A stretch of DNA of 64,000 nt from Corynebacterium glaucum. Its GTDB lineage: Bacteria > Actinomycetota > Actinomycetes > Mycobacteriales > Mycobacteriaceae. Below the pieces are notes generated by a model. It worked only from the letters and a program-made list of their open reading frames with translations, did no database searches and was not told where the DNA came from. This document shows positions 12,671 through 25,997 of this stretch, piece by piece. A program made the position numbers and the translations under genes. Where the stretch lies: the NCBI RefSeq assembly GCF_030408855.1, contig NZ_CP047358.1, positions 1,116,001 to 1,180,000 of the forward strand, given 5' to 3'. Each line of letters starts with the position of its first letter. The first letter of the stretch is position 1.

Positions 12671-12743
12671 GCCCCGTTCGTCTAGCGGCCTAGGACGTCG
12701 CCCTCTCACGGCGGTAACACGGGTTCAAATCCCGTACGGGGTA
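12671..12743 (+). tRNA. tRNA-Glu (anticodon CTC), copy 1
   Basis: A 73-base cloverleaf with acceptor GCCCCGT/ACGGGGT, anticodon loop CTCTCAC (anticodon CTC) and T-loop TTCAAAT. CCA is not encoded. The sequence from 12671 to 12747 is identical, as read by eye, to 19352-19428. It is followed by a strong terminator hairpin. Confidence 0.96.
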
Positions 12744-12751
12744 CAACGAAG

Positions 12752-15514: not shown

Positions 15515-16600
15515 TTGTTTACCGCACGAAAGACCTCGCCCGTCATTGCCCTTCTGGGTGCCACCGCTATCGCCCTTGCCGGTTGCTCGGAACCGCCAGA
15601 AGAAACTCCCGAAACCACTGCGGCAGACAACGGCACCGCCACCTCCGCAGCTCGCGAAGGCGATAGAGCCGGTGCTGGCGAAGCTGCATCTTTGACCCTT
15701 TACACCTCCGAGCCGGAGGAAAAGGTCGATGAGATCATCAAGGCCTTCAACGAGGAGCACCCCGACATTGATGTTCAGGTCCACCGCGCGGGCACCGGCG
15801 AGCTGAAGGCTCGAATTGAGGCCGAGCGCAGCTCCGGCGCGGTCGAGGCGGACTTGATCTGGGCCGCCGACGCTCCGACGTTCGAGGAGTTCAAGTCGAA
15901 CGACCTTCTGGCCAAGTTTGAGAATGTGGACTCCGACGATGTCCTTGAAGATGCGGTTGACCCGGATTCCTTTTACGTGGGAACCCGCCTCATCCCGACA
16001 GTAATCGCATATAACACCCAGGTCATCGACGAGGCAGATGCTCCGCAGTCGTGGACGGACCTCACGGACGAACGCTTCCTGGACAAGATCGTGCTGCCGG
16101 ACCCGGCCGTGTCTGGTGCGGCCGCATACAACGCGACCGTGTGGATGAACGACTCTCAGCTCGGCGAGGAGTGGATCACCGCGCTCGGCGAGAACAACCC
16201 GATGATCGCCGCCTCAAACGGCCCGACCTCGCAGGAGATTGCGGGCGGCGGTCACCCGGTCGGCATCGTCGTGGATTACCTCGTGCGTGACTTGGCCGAC
16301 AAGGGCTCTCCGATCAAGGAGGTCTACGCCTCCGAGGGATCGCCGTACATCACTGAGCCGATCGCGGTGTTCAAGGATTCCCAGAACCAGAAGGCTGCGG
16401 AGCTCTTCATCAACTTCATCCTGTCCCAGAAGGGCCAGGAGTTAGCGGTCGAGCAGAACTACCTCCCGGTGATCGACGGAGTCGGCACCCCGGGTGACGC
16501 GCCTGAGCTCAAGGACATCAAGCTGATGGAAGCTGACCTGAAGACGCTGACCGATGACCGGACCCGCTCGGTCGAGTTCTTCCAGAACGCGCTGCAGTAG
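15515..16600 (+). CDS. ABC importer substrate-binding lipoprotein, ferric-iron family
   Basis: An extracytoplasmic solute-binding lipoprotein of 361 residues: lipobox LAGC (Cys24), an acidic linker, then a periplasmic-binding fold starting LTLYTSEPEEKVDEI. Strings such as KARIEAERSSGAVEADLIW, TVIAYNTQVI and AVFKDSQNQKAAELFINF are typical of the FbpA/FutA ferric-iron cluster. Related proteins bind phosphonates, thiamine or polyamines, so the ligand is not certain. The start is TTG at 15515 with AAGGAG seven to eight bases upstream. TGCTATGGT near 15473-15481 is a possible extended -10. It is the first gene of a three-gene importer. Confidence 0.85.
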   Translation: MFTARKTSPVIALLGATAIALAGCSEPPEETPETTAADNGTATSAAREGDRAGAGEAASLTLYTSEPEEKVDEIIKAFNEEHPDIDVQVHRAGTGELKARIEAERSSGAVEADLIWAADAPTFEEFKSNDLLAKFENVDSDDVLEDAVDPDSFYVGTRLIPTVIAYNTQVIDEADAPQSWTDLTDERFLDKIVLPDPAVSGAAAYNATVWMNDSQLGEEWITALGENNPMIAASNGPTSQEIAGGGHPVGIVVDYLVRDLADKGSPIKEVYASEGSPYITEPIAVFKDSQNQKAAELFINFILSQKGQELAVEQNYLPVIDGVGTPGDAPELKDIKLMEADLKTLTDDRTRSVEFFQNALQ

Positions 16601-16611
16601 GTAACGGGGCA

Positions 16612-18231
16612 GTGGCACGGGGCAAAGAAGGACTCACCTTCGGGCTCCGCTTGGCGCACCTTGGTGTCTGGCTTGTCGCAATCGGGGTGTTCGCTGCCCC
16701 GCTAGCGTTAGTCATTTCGCTCGCGCTGGGAGGCAACCAGTTCCCCGTGCTTATTGAGCAGGGGCTGGGAAGGGCGACCTGGAACTCGATTTACACCACG
16801 GTGCTGTCATCCGTCGGCGCCGTGATCATTGGCGGGACGGTCGCAATCCTGCTGGAGCGAACCGACGTGGGCGGTACAACTGGCCTGCGCCTCTTCCTCC
16901 TCTCTCCGTTGCTCGTTCCGCCGTTCGTCGGCGCCATCTCCTGGTTGCAACTTTTCGGACGGAACCAGGGGCTCAACGCGGTGTTCGACCGCCCGATCTG
17001 GGACCTCTACGGTGCCGACGGCATCGTCTTCCTGATGACGCTGCACTCTTACCCGGTCGTGTACGTCATCGTCTCTGCGGCGCTTCGTTCAATCCCATCC
17101 GATTTGGAGCTCGCCGCAAGGGTAGGAGGCGCATCCAGCGGCACCGCCCTTCGCACCGTCACCATCCCTCTCCTCGGGCCAGCGTTTCTCAGTGCGTTCA
17201 CGTTGACCGCCGTGTCCAACCTGGCGGACTTCGGCATCCCTTCGATTCTCGGTTCGCCGGTGCGGTTCGAAACCTTGGCCACCATGGTGTACCGGATGAT
17301 GGAATCCGGGACCGTCTCAAACCCGCTGCAGGTTGTCTCCACCGTCGGTGCTGTGCTCATGCTGCTCGGCGTCGCGGCGGTCGTTGCCGATTACGTTATC
17401 TCGCGGCACGAGACATCCACCGTGACCGGCGGTGGCACGATGAAGCTCGCCCTCGGTACTGCCAAACTCCCAGTCACCATCGTGACTTGGGTACTCGCAC
17501 TCGCCATCACCGTCGGGCCGCTGCTCGGCTTAACCTACCGCGCACTCCTTCCCGCTCCTGGAGTGCCGTTTAATGCCGAAAACATCTCCTTCGACAACTT
17601 CTCGAAAACGTTGGGTAACCCCCGGGTAGTCGACGGGTTCACCAACTCCGTCATCCTCGCCGGCGGGGCCGCCCTGCTGTGCGGACTACTCGGATGGGCA
17701 ATCGGCATCTTGGTCACCCGCACCCGCTCGCGGATGAACACGCCGCTTTCCCTGCTCACGCTGCTCCCTGCAGCGCTGCCAGGCCTGATCATCGGCGTCG
17801 GCTGGGTCATCTTCGGCCGCTACACCGGCATTTACAACACGCGCTGGGTGATTTTGCTCGCCTATGTCTGCGCATTCACCGCCATGGTGCTGCAGGCCGT
17901 GCGCGCGCCGCTGGCGAAGACCCCGGACGCGGTCGAGGAAGCAGCGCAGATCTCAGGCGCTGGCCGGCTGCGCGCGATCTGGGACACCAGTGGACGCATG
18001 GCTCTGCCTGCTGTGTTCTCCGGCGCCGTGCTAGTGGCTGTGACCGCAGTGCGCGAGCTCACTGTCTCCATTTTGCTCGTCGCACCTGGCACCACAACTA
18101 TCGGCGTGCAACTGTTCAACCTGCAGCAATCCGGCAATTACAACCAGGCCTCCGCCCTCGCTTTGATGTTCGCGATCATCGGCATTGTCGCGCTGGCGCT
18201 GACGGTTCGGGGTCCCTCCAAGGAGTCTTAG
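16612..18231 (+). CDS. ABC importer permease, FbpB type (two fused membrane domains)
   Basis: A 539-residue integral membrane protein with about twelve predicted membrane segments arranged as two copies of the binding-protein-dependent permease domain. EAA-type loops are visible around ELAARVGGASSGTALRTV and EEAAQISGAGRLRAIWD, which contact the ATPase. Duplicated single-chain permeases are the rule in the ferric-iron family. The start is GTG 16612, 11 bases after the binding-protein gene. The stop codon directly abuts the ATPase start, so the three genes form an operon. Confidence 0.88.
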   Translation: MARGKEGLTFGLRLAHLGVWLVAIGVFAAPLALVISLALGGNQFPVLIEQGLGRATWNSIYTTVLSSVGAVIIGGTVAILLERTDVGGTTGLRLFLLSPLLVPPFVGAISWLQLFGRNQGLNAVFDRPIWDLYGADGIVFLMTLHSYPVVYVIVSAALRSIPSDLELAARVGGASSGTALRTVTIPLLGPAFLSAFTLTAVSNLADFGIPSILGSPVRFETLATMVYRMMESGTVSNPLQVVSTVGAVLMLLGVAAVVADYVISRHETSTVTGGGTMKLALGTAKLPVTIVTWVLALAITVGPLLGLTYRALLPAPGVPFNAENISFDNFSKTLGNPRVVDGFTNSVILAGGAALLCGLLGWAIGILVTRTRSRMNTPLSLLTLLPAALPGLIIGVGWVIFGRYTGIYNTRWVILLAYVCAFTAMVLQAVRAPLAKTPDAVEEAAQISGAGRLRAIWDTSGRMALPAVFSGAVLVAVTAVRELTVSILLVAPGTTTIGVQLFNLQQSGNYNQASALALMFAIIGIVALALTVRGPSKES

Positions 18232-19275
18232 ATGAGCGATATCGCAATCGACAACCTCTCCGTCGTGTTCCCCGATGGCACCGTCGGCCTCGACGAAGTG
18301 AGCCTCACCGTCAACAGCGGCGAGTTCGTTGCCCTCGTCGGTCCATCGGGGTCCGGCAAGACGACGCTCTTGCGATCGGTAGCTGGTTTCATCGAGCCGT
18401 CGTCAGGCTCAATTGCCCTCGACGGCACCGACGTCTCCTTAACCCCGCCGGAGAAGCGCGACATGGGCATGGTGTTTCAGCAGCACGCAGTCTGGCCGCA
18501 CATGAGCGTCGCGCAAAACGTGGCCTACCCGCTACAGCGCCGCGGGGTGGGGAAGCAGGAGCAGCGACAGCGAGTCGAGGCCACGCTCGAGCAGGTTGGC
18601 CTTGCGGGCTACGGCAAGCGCCGGCCGTCGACGCTTTCCGGCGGCCAGCGCCAGCGCGTCGCCCTCGCGCGTGCGATCGTCTCCACCCCGAAAGTCTTGC
18701 TTCTCGACGAAGCGTTGTCCGCCCTCGACGAGCCGTTGCGCGATTCGCTGCGCCGGGAGCTGGTGACCCTCACGCGCGAATCCGACCTCACCACCGTGCA
18801 CGTCACGCACGACCGCAAGGAAGCCATCGCCATCGCCGACCGCATCGCACTCCTCCGCGACGGCCAACTTGAACAGTTCGACACCCCGCACACGATTGTC
18901 ACCCGCCCAGCCACACCTTGGGTCGCATCGTTCATCGCGGATGCCACGCTTCTCGACGGTCGCGTGGAAGACGGCCAAGTGATCACGGAAGACCCAGCAT
19001 TCGCTTGGGATCTCAGCGAAGTCGAAATGATCGGAGATCCGACATCGCAGGTCACCGTTGCAGTGTTGCCGGGGGCAGTGACCGTCGGGTCGGAGTTGGG
19101 CCCGCAGTCCCGGCGCGGCGAAATTACCTCTGTGCTCTTCGAGGTCACCGGCTACTCGGTCAATGTGCAGGTTGGCAGCGTGGTGTTCCGCGCCCGCACC
19201 TCGACCGCGATGCGACCTGAAGTGGGCCAAGCAGTGGCGGTTTCTATCGCCCGCCCGCTCGTCTACCCGATGTAG
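18232..19275 (+). CDS. ABC importer ATP-binding subunit, FbpC type
   Basis: A 347-residue ATPase energising the importer encoded just upstream. It shows Walker A GPSGSGKTTL, a Q-loop in MGMVFQQHAVWPH, signature LSGGQRQRVALARA, Walker B VLLLDEALSALDE and a switch His in THDRKEA. A C-terminal TOBE-like region follows (about 240-347). The ATG begins in the base after the permease stop, with AAGGAG inside the end of the permease gene. A tRNA-Glu lies 76 bases downstream. Confidence 0.93.
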   Translation: MSDIAIDNLSVVFPDGTVGLDEVSLTVNSGEFVALVGPSGSGKTTLLRSVAGFIEPSSGSIALDGTDVSLTPPEKRDMGMVFQQHAVWPHMSVAQNVAYPLQRRGVGKQEQRQRVEATLEQVGLAGYGKRRPSTLSGGQRQRVALARAIVSTPKVLLLDEALSALDEPLRDSLRRELVTLTRESDLTTVHVTHDRKEAIAIADRIALLRDGQLEQFDTPHTIVTRPATPWVASFIADATLLDGRVEDGQVITEDPAFAWDLSEVEMIGDPTSQVTVAVLPGAVTVGSELGPQSRRGEITSVLFEVTGYSVNVQVGSVVFRARTSTAMRPEVGQAVAVSIARPLVYPM

Positions 19276-19351: not shown

Positions 19352-19424
19352 GCCCCGTTCGTCTAGCGGCCTAGGACGTCGCCCTCTCACGGCGGTAACA
19401 CGGGTTCAAATCCCGTACGGGGTA
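19352..19424 (+). tRNA. tRNA-Glu (anticodon CTC), copy 2
   Basis: Same 73-base tRNA as at 12671-12743, and the identity continues four bases beyond it. Flanks differ on both sides. It has its own promoter and is followed by a 12-base-pair hairpin that abuts the next start codon. Confidence 0.96.
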
Positions 19425-19443
19425 CAACTTGGAAATAATAGGT

Positions 19444-19473
19444 GCAGCCCAGCTTTGACATAAGCTGGGCTGC
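19444..19473 (+). terminator. 12-bp perfect inverted repeat abutting a start codon
   Basis: GCAGCCCAGCTT (19444-19455) and AAGCTGGGCTGC (19462-19473) are separated by six bases. The right arm ends on the base before ATG 19474. It could end the tRNA-Glu transcript, although only CCTTTA follows rather than a T-run. It could instead be an operator or a 5' hairpin controlling the next gene, which has no visible ribosome site. Confidence 0.55.
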
Positions 19474-20457
19474 ATGCCTTTAACTGAAAAGTCTCCCGCG
19501 TCACCCGATTACCTTCCAGGTGGGTTGCTCAGCGCCATCGGGAACACCCCGCTCGTGGATTTGTCCGCGGGCTTCGACCATTCCGCCACCGACGTCGTTG
19601 AGGTGTGGGGCAAGCTCGAATCCTTCAACCCCGGAGGCAGCGCCAAGGATCGCACTGCGCGCGCACTGGTCGCCGACGCAACCGAGAAGGGCATTCTCTA
19701 CCCAGGCGCCATCGCCGTCGAGTCGAGCAGCGGCAACCTCGGTGTGGCTCTGGCCCGCGAGGCTGTCACGGGTGGGTGGGAGTTCCACTGTGTAGTGGAC
19801 CAGCGCACCAACGGCGCCACCGTCGCCATGATCGAAGCGCTCGGCGCCACCTTGCACCCGGTCACCGAACCGGATCCGGAGACCGGCGACTGGCTCGCCG
19901 CGCGCCGCAAGAAGGTCGCCGAGCTCAAGGACGAACTGGGCGCGGTGAACTTGGACCAGTACTCCAACCGCGCGGCGTTCGACGCCCACGATTTCGGCAC
20001 GATGGCTGAGATCGTCGACCAGCTCGGCCACGCCCCGGAAGTCCTCGTAGTTTCGGTGAGCACCACCGGCACCGTCGGCGGGTGCCTACGTCACATCCGC
20101 GAACACAACTACGACACTCAGGTCATCGCAGTCGATGCGGAGGGCTCAGTGCTTTTCGACGGCACCCGCGGCGAGCGCATCCTCCCGGGCTACGGCGCCG
20201 GGGTGGTGCCCGAACTCTCGAACGAAGTTGAACCGGACCGCGTGATCCGCGTCACCGCCAAAGACGCGGTCGCAGCCGCGCGCGGTTTGGCGCGCTCCAC
20301 TGGATTTGTGCCGGGGGCTTCGGGCGGGGCGGTTGCTCATGCCGTCGATAAGCTTGCGCGCGAAGGCGCGCGCGAGATCGCCGCGATTTTCCACGACGAC
20401 GGCCGCGCGTACCTCGATACCGTCTACAACGATGAGTGGGTGCAGCAATGCGTGTAG
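19474..20457 (+). CDS. cysteine-synthase-family PLP enzyme (SbnA-like)
   Basis: A 327-residue fold-type II PLP enzyme. It contains AIGNTPLVDLS, the PLP lysine in PGGSAKDRTA, the substrate loop ESSSGNLGVALA and the phosphate-binding VSTTGTVGG. The long insertion with EPDPETGDWLAARRKKV is more like SbnA-type enzymes, which join O-phosphoserine with an amine donor to make 2,3-diaminopropionate precursors, than like housekeeping CysK. This is an inference from pattern and context. The ATG at 19474 has no ribosome site and directly follows a 12-bp inverted repeat. Its 3' end overlaps the next gene by ten bases, so the two are coupled. Confidence 0.82.
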   Translation: MPLTEKSPASPDYLPGGLLSAIGNTPLVDLSAGFDHSATDVVEVWGKLESFNPGGSAKDRTARALVADATEKGILYPGAIAVESSSGNLGVALAREAVTGGWEFHCVVDQRTNGATVAMIEALGATLHPVTEPDPETGDWLAARRKKVAELKDELGAVNLDQYSNRAAFDAHDFGTMAEIVDQLGHAPEVLVVSVSTTGTVGGCLRHIREHNYDTQVIAVDAEGSVLFDGTRGERILPGYGAGVVPELSNEVEPDRVIRVTAKDAVAAARGLARSTGFVPGASGGAVAHAVDKLAREGAREIAAIFHDDGRAYLDTVYNDEWVQQCV

Positions 20458-23207
20458 CGATTATCGGTGCTGGTCCGCGCGGGCTCTGGGCCGCTGAAGC
20501 ACTCATGGAACGCGCGCGCCAACGCGGCGCCGCCATCGAGCTCGCGGTGTTCAACGACGGCCCCATCGACACGGCGTCCGGCAACGGCGCGTTCCAGGAA
20601 TCCCTGCCTGACGAGTGGTTGCTCAACGTGCCCGCCCACGTCATCGAGACCCAGCTCGGCAGCTTCAACGATTGGCGCGGCGCCACCGACTCCTTCCCGC
20701 CGCGCAACACCGTGGGCAGGTTCCTCCAGGCCTCGTGGCGCGCGCTCGAACAGCACCTTCCGCCGCGCTGCTCGCTTGAATTCAGGTCAGAGCAGGTCAC
20801 GGAGCTTTCGCTTGACGACGCCCACGTGCTCCTCGAAGGCGAGCCTTTCGAGGAAGTCCTGCTGGCCACCGGCCACGCGCAACACTGGCCCGGGTCGTTG
20901 GCAGGTGCAGAGATTGCCGGACTGCCCGTGATTGCGCCGGCGTACCCCGCGTCGCAGCTCGACTCGGTGGGGGAAGATGACATCGCTTTGGTCCGTGGCG
21001 CCGCGCTCACGTTCATCGACGTGACCCGCTACGCCAAAGCTAAGGTGTTCTTCCCGGTCACGCGCACGGGACGGTTCATGGAGGTCAAGGCATACCCGGA
21101 TGATGCGGTGGCGCGCGAACTCGCTCCGGTGATTGCATCTGCATCCGAGCAGATCCTCGACAGCGGCAGCTTTGACGAACTGGTCGCTATTCTCGCGGAC
21201 TGCGCCTCCCAGGTGCTCAGCATCGTGGGCGGCGAGGGCAGCGAGTCGGACATCAGCGCTGTGCTTGCCGGCGAGGACTTCTCCGGCGATCCGGTGGCAG
21301 AACTGCGCGCCTCTCTTGCCGCGGCAGAAGGTGAGCGGCCGTGGACCCCGGCACTTGCGGTGGCGCTCGCGTTCCGCGATACGTACCCGGCCATCGTTGA
21401 GCGCGTCTCCTTCGGTGGGCGTGAAACCCTTGGCGGGCAGCGTTTCGACGCGCTGACCCGCACCCTTGAGCGCGTCGCGTTCGGCCCGCCGCCGGCATCC
21501 GCCCGCGATCTGCTCGCGATGCTCGATGCTGGCCGGATCCGCACCGACGTTTTCAGCCGTGGCGACGAGGACTTGGCCGCCCTGGCCAAGGAGGTCGGCG
21601 CGACCGTGGTCATCGACTCGGTGACCGCGCCCGCAGGCGTCGTCGAAGGCACGCTGGTCGGCGATCTTGTCGAGCGCGGCATCGGCACCCGCTACGCCGA
21701 CACAGATGCGCTGCACATCGAGCGCGATGGCACCCTGGTCGGCCAGACCCGCATCGCAGCGGCCGGCCGCATGAACGAGGGTCTCATCCTCGGCCACGAC
21801 ACACTGCGCCGCGACAAGCACGACGTGATCGAGCGCTGGGCGGATCGCGTCAGCGCGGCCGCGATGGACAACCCCGACCGAGTTCACGGCCTGCCCCCGC
21901 TCGTACCGCGCAGCTTCGACTGGTCGGAAGCGCTGCTCGCCGACCCGGAAGAAGCGCAGCGCCTCATCGATGCCTTCGGCAGCCCGGTGAACGTGCTCAA
22001 CCCGGGTCCGATGGAGGCGAACATCGCCGAGCTCGTCGCCGCGGGCGAGAACATGGGCGTGGAGACGAAGATCTTCTACGCCCGCAAGGCGAATAAGGCC
22101 CTTGTCTTCGCAGACACCGTGCGCGATACGGACCACGGCGTTGACGTCGCCAGCGAGAACGAGCTGCGCCAGGTCCTCGAGCATGGCATGCCGGGCCACC
22201 GCATCATCTGCTCCGCCGCGATCAAGCCGGCCCCGATGCTGCAGCTCGCGATCGACAACGGCGTCGTCATCTCGGTGGACACCCGCGCAGAGTACGAACG
22301 CATCCGCGCCCTCGCCGAAGCAGCCGGCACGCAGGCCAAGGTCGCCCCGCGCCTCGCGCCGGATCCGGGCACCATGCCGCCGACGCGCTTCGGTGAACGC
22401 CTGCGGGATTGGGATCGGCATTTGCAAGAGCCGTCGACAAGCGTGCGTGTGGTTGGGGTACATGCCCACTTGCACGGATACGCTGCGGCCGACCGTTCGA
22501 GCGCACTGCGCGAGTGCATGGAGCTGATCGACCGGCTGCGCGACGCCGGGCACGCGCCAGAATTCATCGACATCGGCGGCGGCGTGCCCATGCGCTACCT
22601 GGAGCACGAGTCGCAGTGGCGTGACTATCAGGCGGCGATCGACGCGCAGCGCGAAGGTTACGCCGCGCCGTTCACCTGGAAATCCGACCCGCTGCGCAAC
22701 ACCTACCCCTACTGGCAAGAACCGACGCGCGGCGCGTGGCTCGAGCAGGTGCTCGGCGATAGCGTCGCGGAGGCCATGCAGGCACGCGGCTTGCGGTTGC
22801 ATCTCGAGCCGGGCCGTTCGCTTCTCGACGGCTGCGGCGTCATCCTCGCCCAGGTGGCCTTTGTCAAGACACGCTCTGACGGGCTTCCACTCGTTGGGCT
22901 GGCGATGAACCGCACCCAGTGCCGCACCACGTCGGACGACTACCTCACCGATCCGATCTTGCTCAAACGCGGCGCAGATTCGGAGCCGATGGAGGCGTTC
23001 TTGGTCGGCGCGTACTGCATCGAGGACGAGGTGATTCTGCGGCGCAGAATCCGCTTCCCCCGCGGCGTGGCGGCGGGCGACATCATCGCGATCCCGAACG
23101 CGGCCGGCTACTTCATGCACATTCTGGAAAGCGCGTCGCACCAGATCCCGCTGGCGAAAAACGTCGTCTACCCGCCGGGCGAACTCGACGCGATCGACCA
23201 GCGCTAG
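20448..23207 (+). CDS. fusion: FAD/NAD(P)-binding module plus PLP-dependent decarboxylase
   Basis: A 919-residue two-part enzyme. The N-terminal part (1 to about 450) has a dinucleotide-binding GAGPRGLWAAEAL at 7-19, PDEWLLNVPAHVIE and VLLATGHAQHWPG, typical of FAD-NAD(P)-binding proteins of the NAD_binding_9 type. The C-terminal part (about 480-919) is a fold-type III decarboxylase like DAP/ornithine decarboxylases or SbnH: PLP lysine in FYARKANKA near 544, HLHGYAA near 669, IDIGGGVPM near 709, LEPGRSLLDG near 785 and CRTTSDDY near 823. It may belong to the Y4yA-like group. ATG 20448 overlaps the previous gene's stop. The likely joint role is a small amino-acid-derived metabolite; the product is unknown. 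Confidence 0.82.
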   Translation: MRVAIIGAGPRGLWAAEALMERARQRGAAIELAVFNDGPIDTASGNGAFQESLPDEWLLNVPAHVIETQLGSFNDWRGATDSFPPRNTVGRFLQASWRALEQHLPPRCSLEFRSEQVTELSLDDAHVLLEGEPFEEVLLATGHAQHWPGSLAGAEIAGLPVIAPAYPASQLDSVGEDDIALVRGAALTFIDVTRYAKAKVFFPVTRTGRFMEVKAYPDDAVARELAPVIASASEQILDSGSFDELVAILADCASQVLSIVGGEGSESDISAVLAGEDFSGDPVAELRASLAAAEGERPWTPALAVALAFRDTYPAIVERVSFGGRETLGGQRFDALTRTLERVAFGPPPASARDLLAMLDAGRIRTDVFSRGDEDLAALAKEVGATVVIDSVTAPAGVVEGTLVGDLVERGIGTRYADTDALHIERDGTLVGQTRIAAAGRMNEGLILGHDTLRRDKHDVIERWADRVSAAAMDNPDRVHGLPPLVPRSFDWSEALLADPEEAQRLIDAFGSPVNVLNPGPMEANIAELVAAGENMGVETKIFYARKANKALVFADTVRDTDHGVDVASENELRQVLEHGMPGHRIICSAAIKPAPMLQLAIDNGVVISVDTRAEYERIRALAEAAGTQAKVAPRLAPDPGTMPPTRFGERLRDWDRHLQEPSTSVRVVGVHAHLHGYAAADRSSALRECMELIDRLRDAGHAPEFIDIGGGVPMRYLEHESQWRDYQAAIDAQREGYAAPFTWKSDPLRNTYPYWQEPTRGAWLEQVLGDSVAEAMQARGLRLHLEPGRSLLDGCGVILAQVAFVKTRSDGLPLVGLAMNRTQCRTTSDDYLTDPILLKRGADSEPMEAFLVGAYCIEDEVILRRRIRFPRGVAAGDIIAIPNAAGYFMHILESASHQIPLAKNVVYPPGELDAIDQR

Positions 23208-23239
23208 TCCAGCGCTAATTCGGCGCTAAGCCAGTGCTG
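23200..23239. repeat. four AGCGCTA-like units at 11-base spacing
   Basis: AGCGCTA at 23200 and 23211, GGCGCTA at 23222 and AGTGCTG at 23233. The units are exactly 11 bases apart and span the convergent 3' ends of the fusion gene and the ltbR-like gene. Confidence 0.5.
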
Positions 23240-23918
23240 CGGACAGCTCCTCGGCGGCGGCCGTGAGCGCCTTGCCCACCTTCGCAGCGGGGCTCGGTCC
23301 GAGACGCTCCGCGGGGCCGGACACCGAGAGCACAGCGACGACGCGTCCGTCTGCGTCGAAGATCGGTGAAGAGGCGGAGGCGAGGCCGACCTCGCGTTCC
23401 GCGACGGATTCTGCGAGGCGGAATTTCTTCACGTCGGCGAGTTCTTCGGGGCGGAAGGGGGAGGCGTCGATAAGCGAAAATGCCCCGAAAACCCGAGCGG
23501 CGGAGCCTGCGGCGAGGGTGAGATGGGAGCCGACGGGGACGGTGTAGGTGAGGCCGGACTCGGGCTCTTCGGAGGCGATGCAGGTGCGGGTGTCGCCGGT
23601 GAGCTCGTAAAGCTGGACCGATTCGCCGGTAGTTTCGACGAGCTGGCGCATGATTGGGCCGGCAGCGGTGATGAGCCTCGGCGGAGTGCCGGAGGCAAAG
23701 TGGGCGAGTGCCGGGCCGATGGTCCACGCACCGTCGGCGGTGCGCGCGAGGATGTGGTGGACCTCGAGGGCCGTGGCGATGCGATGGGTGGTGGCGCGCG
23801 GCAAACCGGTATCCTGGCTGAGGCTGGCCAGCGACTTGTCGCCCCTGGCAACGGAACGCACGATGGCAACGGATCGGTCGAGGACCTTGATCCCGGAGTC
23901 TTCGCTATACTGTCTCAC
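23226..23918 (-). CDS. ltbR: IclR-family regulator, LtbR-like (leucine biosynthesis)
   Basis: A DNA-binding repressor of about 230 residues. It has an N-terminal winged helix ([12 protein letters not shown] to [14 protein letters not shown]) and a C-terminal IclR effector domain ([52 protein letters not shown]). It is divergent from leuCD, the position of LtbR in C. glutamicum, where it represses leu genes. GTG 23918 is preferred because TAGTAT on the minus strand (23926-23931) lies seven bases before it, giving a leaderless transcript. An ATG at 23942 would add eight residues. The symbol is assigned by family and synteny. Confidence 0.88.
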
Positions 23919-23941
23919 AGCATGGATACTATCATCTCGCA
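23906..23941. promoter_or_regulatory. ltbR-leuC divergent control region
   Basis: It holds TATACT (23906-23911, plus strand), TAGTAT (23926-23931, minus strand) and two direct repeats TCTCACA (23913-23919) and TCTCGCA (23935-23941), 22 bases apart, or two helical turns. The repeats are candidate half-operators for the divergently encoded IclR protein. No binding motif was verified. Confidence 0.45.
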
Positions 23942-23965
23942 TTCTGGAACCAAGGAGGAGTTGCG

Positions 23966-25396
23966 GTGGCTGATCAACCCTTAACGCTCGCGGAGAAGGT
24001 GTGGCGCGACCACGTCGTCACCAAAGGCGGGAACGGCGAGCCGGATCTGATCTACATCGACTTCCAGCTCCTCCACGAGGTGACGTCGCCGCAGGCGTTC
24101 GACGGGCTGCGCATGGCAGGTCGCGCGATGCGCCACCCAGAGCTGCACTTGGCAACCGAAGACCACAACGTGCCCACTGTGCCCACCGCGGGCATAGTGG
24201 GCGGCAACCTGCTTGAGATCGCCGAGCCGACCTCGCGCACCCAGGTGGAAACCCTGCGCAAGAACTGCGAGGAGTTCGGCGTGCGCCTGCATCCAATGGG
24301 TGATGTGAAGCAGGGCATCGTGCACACCGTAGGCCCGCAGCTGGGCATCACCCAACCGGGTATGACCATCGTCTGCGGCGACAGCCACACCTCAACGCAC
24401 GGCGCGTTCGGCTCGATCGCGTTCGGCATCGGCACCTCCGAGGTCGAGCACGTCATGGCGACGCAAACGCTGAGCCTCAAGCCGTTCAAGACTATGGCCA
24501 TCGAGGTCTCCGGCGAACTGCAGCCGGGCGTGACTGCGAAGGACCTGATTCTGGCCATCATCGCCAAGATCGGCACCGGCGGCGGTCAGGGTTACGTTAT
24601 CGAGTACCGCGGCGAGGCCATCGAGAAGCTCTCGATGGAAGCGCGCATGACCATCTGCAACATGTCCATCGAGGCGGGTGCGCGAGCCGGCATGGTCGCG
24701 CCGGACCAGAAGACCTTCGACTATGTGGAGGGCCGCGAGTACGCGCCGAAGGGTTCCGATTGGGACGACGCGGTGGCCTACTGGAAAACGCTGCCCACTG
24801 ACGACGGAGCGCAGTTCGACGCAGTCGTGGAGATCGACGGCTCCGCGCTCACCCCATTTGTCACCTGGGGCACCAACCCCGGCCAGGGCCTGCCGCTCAG
24901 CGAAAACGTGCCGCACCCGGAGGACTTCACCGACGCCGCCGCCAAGCAAGCCGCGGAGAAGGCCATCGAGTACATGGACCTCACCCCGGGCACCCCGCTG
25001 CGCGACATCAAGATCGACACCGTGTTCCTCGGCTCCTGCACCAACGCCCGCATCGAGGACCTTCGTGCAGCCGCCGAGGTGGTCAAGGGCAAGCACATTG
25101 CCGACGGCACCCGGATGCTGGTTGTCCCATCCTCCACCATGGTGAAGCAGCAGGCGGAGGAAGAGGGCCTGGACAAGGTCTTCACCGAATTCGGTGCCGA
25201 GTGGCGCACTGCGGGTTGCTCCATGTGCCTCGGTATGAACCCGGACCAGCTGGCGCCGGGGGAGCGCTCGGCATCCACAAGCAACCGCAACTTTGAAGGC
25301 CGCCAGGGACCGGGTGGGCGCACACACTTGGTTTCCCCGCTGGTCGCCGCCGCGACCGCAATCACCGGCCACCTCGCAAGCCCCGCCGACCTGTAA
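23966..25396 (+). CDS. leuC: 3-isopropylmalate dehydratase large subunit
   Basis: The iron-sulfur subunit of isopropylmalate isomerase in leucine synthesis, 476 residues. Family strings include [33 protein letters not shown] and [10 protein letters not shown]. The three cysteines for the 4Fe-4S cluster are in SCTN and in CSMC. The GTG start at 23966 follows AAGGAGGAG. leuD starts 10 bases after its stop, so the two subunits are made together. Expression is probably controlled by the divergent IclR regulator. Confidence 0.97.
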
Positions 25397-25406
25397 AGGA
25401 GCAACC

Positions 25407-25997
25407 ATGGAGAAGTTCACCACCCACACCGGTGTCGGCGTGCCGCTGACCCGCACGAACGTGGACACCGACCAGATCATCCCCGCGCGCTACCTGAAGC
25501 GCGTCTCCCGCACCGGCTTCGAGGACGGGCTGTTCTCCAATTGGCGCGAAACTGAACCCGGGTTCGTGCTGAACCAGGACGCTTTCAAAGACGGCACGGT
25601 GCTGTTTGCCGGCACCGACTTCGGCACCGGCTCCTCCCGCGAGCACGCCGTATGGGCGCTCATGGACTACGGCTTCCGCGCCGTGTTCAGCCCCCGCTTC
25701 GCAGACATCTTTCGCGGCAACTCCGGCAAGGCCGGCCTGCTAGCCGGGATCATGGACGAGGCCGACATTGAGTTGATCTGGAAGCTCCTCGAGCAGGAAC
25801 CAGGCCAGGAAGTCACCGTCTCTCTCGAAGATCGCACCGTGCGAGTCGGGGAGAACCTCTTCCCCTTCGACATCGACAACTACACCCGTTGGCGGCTCAT
25901 GGAAGGCCTCGACGATATCGGGCTGACGCTTCGCGACGAGGGTGCGATCACTGAGTTTGAGGCACAGCGACCGTCCTTCAAGCCAACGGTTTCTTAA
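25407..25997 (+). CDS. leuD: 3-isopropylmalate dehydratase small subunit
   Basis: The swivelling partner of LeuC, 196 residues. It shows [31 protein letters not shown] and FGDI-type region [16 protein letters not shown], all normal for LeuD. The ATG at 25407 has AAAGGAG upstream and gives the usual family length. It is the last gene of the leuCD unit; an unknown gene follows after 17 bases with its own -10-like box. Confidence 0.96.

Follow-up and report, generated by a model that had tools for sequence, protein, structure and literature searches.

Which compound is made by a two-gene unit of Corynebacterium glaucum, and by what route? The unit lies in the window, a 64,000-nucleotide stretch of contig NZ_CP047358.1 (positions 1,116,001 to 1,180,000 of the forward strand; assembly GCF_030408855.1), and the source genome is one 2.53 Mb contig with an estimated completeness of 100%. 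The first gene encodes an SbnA-type pyridoxal phosphate (PLP) enzyme, and the second a flavin module fused to a PLP decarboxylase. The pair probably constitutes a self-contained three-step pathway, in which O-phosphoserine is joined to an amino acid, a nitrogen is oxygenated, and CO2 is removed. As judged from sequences and models, the unit combines known enzyme families, intact catalytic residues, an O-phosphoserine-type site, and a conserved gene order.

The two-gene layout put forward in the initial annotation was recovered as described. The second gene extends from an ATG at 20448 to 23207, encodes 919 residues, and overlaps the first by ten bases; an alternative GTG start at 20436, four codons upstream, would yield 923 residues. 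The assignment of the first product to the cysteine synthase family is borne out by a Pfam match to PALP (178 bits). The second product joins an NAD-binding module to a fold-type III PLP decarboxylase, as had been claimed, with NAD_binding_9 at residues 8–147 and Orn_Arg_deC_N at residues 538–743 of the 923-residue frame. AlphaFold predicts the whole fusion with confidence (mean pLDDT 91.5, pTM 0.88), which makes a frame artefact unlikely. The ATG of gene 1 abuts a hairpin, and therefore the true start of the gene may lie downstream.

Table 1 Features of the locus, with positions counted from the first letter of the window.
Feature	Position	Strand	Remarks
Gene 1, SbnA-type PLP enzyme	19474–20457	+	327 residues; putative O-phosphoserine-dependent C–N bond former; start codon uncertain
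Residues of gene 1			catalytic K58; O-phosphoserine-selecting R144, Y163, S196
Fusion, N-terminal half, FzmM/CreE-type N-oxygenating flavin monooxygenase (NMO)-like module	20448–21866	+	boundary approximate
Fusion, C-terminal half, fold-type III PLP decarboxylase	21867–23207	+	NMO-partner clade of Y4yA-like group; catalytic residues present
ABC importer	15515–19275	+	binding protein 15515–16600, double permease 16612–18231, ATPase 18232–19275; judged outside the unit
tRNA-Glu (CTC)	19352–19425	+	between importer and pair; outside the pathway
Perfect 13-pair terminator-like hairpin	19443–19474		3' of the tRNA; listed by the scan on the minus strand, where it has a T-rich tail

The closest PDB match of gene 1 is SbnA (5d84, E 3e-52), compared with E 4e-42 for the best non-SbnA match. 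The available text of a study of SbnA attributes the selective binding of O-phosphoserine to Arg132, Tyr152, and Ser185, and gives glutamate as the second substrate (FEBS J. 2025, PMC12414870). These three residues align with the selecting residues of gene 1, and all three are kept in the 20 SbnA-type proteins examined from triads of an SbnA-type enzyme, an NMO-like module, and a decarboxylase, as is the catalytic lysine (20/20). By contrast, the CysK of the same genome has A, F, and G at the three positions. The comparison supports the view that gene 1 is SbnA-like and not a CysK. A small gene of Sulfitobacter sp. F26169L (L113:6500-6964), directly upstream of and overlapping the SbnA-type gene of a triad, offers an independent pointer to O-phosphoserine, since it resembles SbnI and free serine kinase. 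It matches the ParB-like protein of the NGR234 unit (E 7e-17) and that of the Aureimonas unit (E 2e-20), has weak PDB matches to a hypothetical protein (2e-6), free serine kinase (7e-5), and SbnI (1e-3), and has no Pfam match. A catalase gene lies 3' of the Sulfitobacter triad. An SbnI-like query found no match in the C. glaucum genome, in a search that contained no positive control.

The flavin half was matched over its full length, comprising an FAD domain, an NADP domain, and a helical substrate domain, to a solved FzmM-type enzyme in a profile search, whereas a single-sequence search of the PDB gave nothing useful. The catalytic Asn62 of FzmM, positioned atop the flavin C4a, corresponds to N60 and is kept in all 51 flavin halves compared; the fold and this asparagine are those of the oxygen-activating class B monooxygenases. 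The three-domain fold, cofactor sites, and catalytic asparagine are shared with the aspartate N-hydroxylases FzmM and CreE and with the oxime-forming PcxL of Streptomyces, although the comparison was made with the solved FzmM-type enzyme and not with PcxL. An SbnB-like redox half was rejected, because the SbnB model TIGR03944 is absent from the four NCBIfam families that match the fusion at E <= 1e-3 and the full-length match is to an FzmM-type enzyme instead. The initial annotation had set the module beside SbnB as a different redox module; it is not a counterpart of SbnB by descent, and resembles an FzmM-type N-oxygenase.

In the decarboxylase half, the PLP-binding lysine, the histidine, the glycine loop, the glutamate and arginine of the EPGR motif, the cysteine, and the tyrosine are each present in 22 of 22 NMO-partner decarboxylases. 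Diaminopimelate decarboxylases lead the profile search (3vab, E 6e-39), ahead of 6knh (E 1e-27), whose entry reads 'probable diaminopimelate decarboxylase protein' and which we take to be SbnH. LysA-type enzymes thus score better than this presumed SbnH entry; the lysA equivalog TIGR01048 is missed (119.4 bits against a cut-off of 297.9). Plasmid relatives of this half are annotated 'Y4yA family'.

Matches to the fusion at E <= 1e-60 occur in 115 of 242 Corynebacterium genomes, a hand count that includes broken copies and leaves out five genomes with matches between E 1e-37 and 1e-48 as well as all weaker matches. Full-length or partial relatives in the genus range from 97% identity within the species to about 45% and less, and their presence is patchy. 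According to script-made gene calls, the halves are encoded by separate, adjacent genes in one subset of the genus (tuberculostearicum, dentalis, suicordis, striatum, falsenii, and others) and are fused elsewhere. Flavin-half matches with one in-frame TAG represent degenerate copies in six genomes (G002, G033, G091, G095, G154, and G187). Among 396 evenly sampled genomes of the phylum, the flavin half is matched in the C. glaucum genome and in six others, only three of the latter beyond E 1e-10; therefore, the unit is widely but thinly distributed. In named genomes, a scan with a ceiling of 80 loci yielded 68, from Corynebacterium, Propionibacteriaceae, Micropruina, Kocuria, Nitriliruptoraceae, Rhodobacterales, Planctomycetota, Verrucomicrobiales, and Acidobacteriota. 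The order SbnA, flavin module, decarboxylase on one strand is kept in 65 of them, the remaining three being interrupted by a contig end; since the scan used one flavin-half motif, the linkage is shown within that subfamily only. Between the three proteins, pairwise distances are correlated at r 0.84–0.89 (61 loci, 0 of 1000 permutations; four of the 65 complete loci were dropped because of stops or short matches), a correlation that is uncorrected for species history and partly reflects shared ancestry. The 22 triad decarboxylases form one side of their tree (support 100/99), apart from the Y4yA proteins with other redox partners, and the 20 triad SbnA-type proteins are likewise separate (95/98). 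The trees and residue tests cover this subset of the triads, and the trees carry a warning that long branches meet. A viral home of the unit was rejected, with no relatives in viral contigs, as was a constant extra gene, because the flanking genes vary between loci.

The initial annotation proposed a route of beta-substitution, a redox step, and decarboxylation, and the enzyme families fit this sequence. In the proposed pathway, O-phosphoserine and glutamate, or another acidic amino acid, would be converted to an N-substituted diaminopropionate. The flavin module, to go by its fold, cofactor, and catalytic residues, would then oxygenate a nitrogen of this product using NADPH and O2. A secondary amine could become a hydroxylamine or a nitrone, and hydrolysis of the nitrone could free 2-oxoglutarate and N-hydroxy-diaminopropionate. 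Finally, the fused decarboxylase would remove the alpha-carboxylate, leaving an N-oxygenated ethylenediamine-type product. We infer the amino-acid nucleophile, the nitrogen attacked, the order of the steps, and the product. That the two halves are fused suggests the direct hand-over of a labile, N-oxygenated intermediate.

Each enzyme comes from a known superfamily; what would be new is the place of SbnB being taken by an N-oxygenase within SbnA-type diaminopropionate chemistry. The staphyloferrin B route SbnA-SbnB-SbnH of Staphylococcus aureus shares the first enzyme with its O-phosphoserine-selecting residues, a fold-type III PLP decarboxylase, and the three-step logic. It differs in that C. 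glaucum has no linked SbnB, its FzmM-type flavin module being fused to the decarboxylase, and in that the decarboxylase is nearer to the LysA type in the profile search and no synthetase for nonribosomal peptide synthetase (NRPS)-independent siderophores (NIS) was found in the genome. The EDDS/EDHA aminopolycarboxylate metallophores of Amycolatopsis contain an ethylenediamine unit made from a serine-derived carbon pair without an NRPS, a likeness drawn at the level of the compounds and not of the genes; we know of no N-oxygenase in their pathways. No description of the triad was recognised in the literature searched, which mostly did not reach subscription papers. If the proposed pathway is correct, a three-activity unit present in these Corynebacterium genomes and in at least four other phyla makes an N–O compound without NIS or NRPS machinery, and genome-mining tools keyed to such machinery may therefore overlook it. 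It is tentatively suggested that the triads are widespread minimal pathways, free of an assembly line, from O-phosphoserine and glutamate to an N-oxygenated diamine or aminopolycarboxylate such as N-hydroxy-N-(2-aminoethyl)glutamate or N-hydroxyethylenediamine. Flavin N-oxygenation would replace SbnB-type dehydrogenation, and the resulting compound might serve host-associated, marine, and soil bacteria alike as a small metallophore or as a diffusible signal. The unit poses a testable question, namely how an FzmM-type enzyme acts when given an SbnA product instead of aspartate, and three proteins with a few substrates are enough to answer it.

Several observations weigh against the proposed pathway. 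Gene 1 scores 299.8 bits, short of the 349.95 required by the SbnA equivalog model, and is therefore named SbnA-type and not SbnA proper; four of six triad proteins scanned pass (L087 358.1, L117 384.6, L109 350.9, and L126 361.4), and L154 falls short (338.8) together with gene 1. The aspartate site of FzmM is partly replaced in the 51 flavin halves: Arg412 is tyrosine or phenylalanine in all, the Asn413 position is proline in 32 and asparagine in one, the Arg416 position is valine or isoleucine in 49 and arginine in two (Tessaracoccus), and Arg276 aligns with a variable position. Therefore, the substrate of the flavin half and the outcome of its reaction may differ. Similarity to FzmM is no proof of N-oxygenation, and NAD_binding_9 proteins are, to our knowledge, mostly uncharacterised. 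SbnB-like matches, including those below the cut-off, occur in 166 of 242 genomes of the genus, with two in C. glaucum (best about 95 bits), so an unlinked dehydrogenase could help the route. No exporter, receptor, or regulator constantly linked to the triad was seen in the loci examined, and the role is therefore unreadable from context. The eight upstream or downstream neighbours scanned comprise a catalase, a radical SAM protein, DUF3891, a glycine transporter, a sulfate permease, a host-attachment/baeRF protein, and two proteins without a Pfam match.

The flavin half may instead be a functional replacement of SbnB, which would oxidise the SbnA product by a dehydrogenase or oxidase reaction to L-diaminopropionate and 2-oxoglutarate, so that the decarboxylase would release ethylenediamine without an N–O group. 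This is unlikely. SbnB exceeds its cut-off (326.9 bits) in only one of the 242 genus genomes (G143, whose fusion match has E 6e-4), and the redox slot of related Y4yA-type units, which likewise encode an SbnA-like enzyme, a redox partner, and a decarboxylase together, is occupied by dehydrogenase-type proteins. The partner is annotated as ornithine cyclodeaminase (OCD) in Rhodococcus, Aureimonas, M. avium, and Agrobacterium vitis, and as octopine/nopaline dehydrogenase (ODH) in rhizobia and Nitratireductor; the slot can thus be filled by a dehydrogenase, which keeps this explanation alive. However, the fold and catalytic asparagine of the flavin half are of the oxygen-activating type, and the SbnA-like proteins and decarboxylases of the OCD and ODH units fall outside the NMO-partner clades. 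Their six SbnA-like proteins all keep Arg132, but Tyr152 and Ser185 are both missing in the two ODH-partner and three of the four OCD-partner proteins, and the fourth (L178) retains the tyrosine only. Therefore, these units are not simple swaps of the redox partner.

The rhizobial unit has the order y4yA, cysteine synthase, octopine dehydrogenase, IucA/IucC, and units of OCD, Y4yA, and cysteine synthase occur on actinobacterial and alphaproteobacterial plasmids. On four plasmids (L092, L177, L178, and L179), an OCD, Y4yA-like, SbnA-like unit is followed by MATE in Rhodococcus and Aureimonas and not in Agrobacterium vitis; the order on the M. avium plasmid is SbnA-like, OCD, Y4yA, MATE, and an iron ABC importer adjoins the Aureimonas unit. 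The plasmid unit possibly represents another uncharacterised small-molecule route. The initial annotation had made its proposal depend on whether the pair is linked, in other genomes, to genes for metals or metabolites. Such links are largely missing from the NMO-type triads in the loci examined, but are present in the OCD- and ODH-partner units, which have IucA/IucC, MATE, or iron ABC genes nearby.

That the flavin half is an aspartate N-hydroxylase forming nitrosuccinate or nitrite, with the other two enzymes using the reactive nitrogen, is very unlikely. The full-length FzmM match and the Arg416 of the two Tessaracoccus proteins are in keeping with it, and the alanosine cluster pairs the FzmM/CreE-like AlnM with diaminopropionate, according to the available text of a review (PMC7347517). 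Nevertheless, Arg412, Asn413, and Arg416 are replaced in 51, 50, and 49 of the 51 flavin halves, respectively, and for this reason the module is not filed as an aspartate N-hydroxylase. Unlike FzmM and CreE, it is fused to or encoded with an SbnA-type enzyme and a decarboxylase, and no nitrosuccinate lyase was seen among the varying neighbours, in a survey that did not search for the lyase family itself.

A classical staphyloferrin-B-like iron siderophore, imported in its ferric form by the upstream ABC importer, is highly improbable, despite the SbnA-like enzyme and the Y4yA-type decarboxylases beside IucA/IucC in rhizobia and Nitratireductor. The lack of a siderophore synthetase noted for the window extends to the complete genome, in which neither IucA/IucC (0 matches; two of 14 control genomes positive) nor an NRPS condensation domain was found. 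Among nasal commensals, only one Corynebacterium species tested produced siderophores, according to the available text of the study (PMC11296517), a weak indication because the triad status of the strains is not established. The 'iron-type' importer just upstream of the pair is present, but its description as iron-type is not established: its three proteins are below the curated cut-offs of all NCBIfam models among the matches listed (25 of 188 for the ATPase), and the best of these are PhnS2 for the binding protein, PhnU2 for the permease, and potA and PhnT2 for the ATPase, PhnS2 and PhnU2 being 2-aminoethylphosphonate-type models. The importer was rejected as a part of the unit, and its functional link to the pair is unsupported, because the tRNA-Glu and hairpin, both overlooked in the initial annotation, intervene and only four of 41 neighbourhoods, two of them from the same species, have all of the importer close to the pair. 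These neighbourhoods are the window and 40 chosen stretches, each of at most 20 kb and with script-made gene calls, so that genes at the edges can be missed; partial importers are present in two more, one of which (L069) is cut inside the permease by the stretch edge. Iron or zinc regulation was likewise rejected: DtxR, Zur, and McbR consensus strings show no clear excess over simple letter shuffles in 45 upstream regions.

That the pair consists of housekeeping duplicates, namely an ordinary cysteine synthase and a diaminopimelate-type decarboxylase with an accessory flavoprotein, fits superfamily membership but can practically be dismissed, given the SbnA-type residues of gene 1, a separate CysK adjoined by an apparent CysE gene (read by eye), the missed lysA cut-off, another decarboxylase-like match elsewhere in the genome that is presumably LysA (29% over residues 509–725), and the patchy presence in the genus.

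The hairpin may terminate the tRNA transcript; its plus strand is not followed by a T run, and the scanned stretch contains three terminator-like sites compared with 6.2 in shuffles, which is no excess. A second tRNA-Glu(CTC) gene at 12671–12744 is identical to that at 19352–19425 (74/74 bases), and the segment between them, which carries the ABC importer and two genes of the esterase family, has the look of an insertion or a duplication at a tRNA. Directly downstream of the pair, positions 23226–25997 encode an IclR-type regulator and an apparent leuC-leuD. Since leuC is present in 23 of the 41 neighbourhoods, the pair often occupies a variable spot beside a leuC-leuD block. In four loci (L040, L041, L050, and L069, from genomes G099, G053, G116, and G091), one copy of the pair is separated from a further, partial copy, or is itself interrupted, by a block that encodes two large membrane proteins of the ABC2 type; except at L050, the block includes purple-acid-phosphatase-like and PhoD-like genes.

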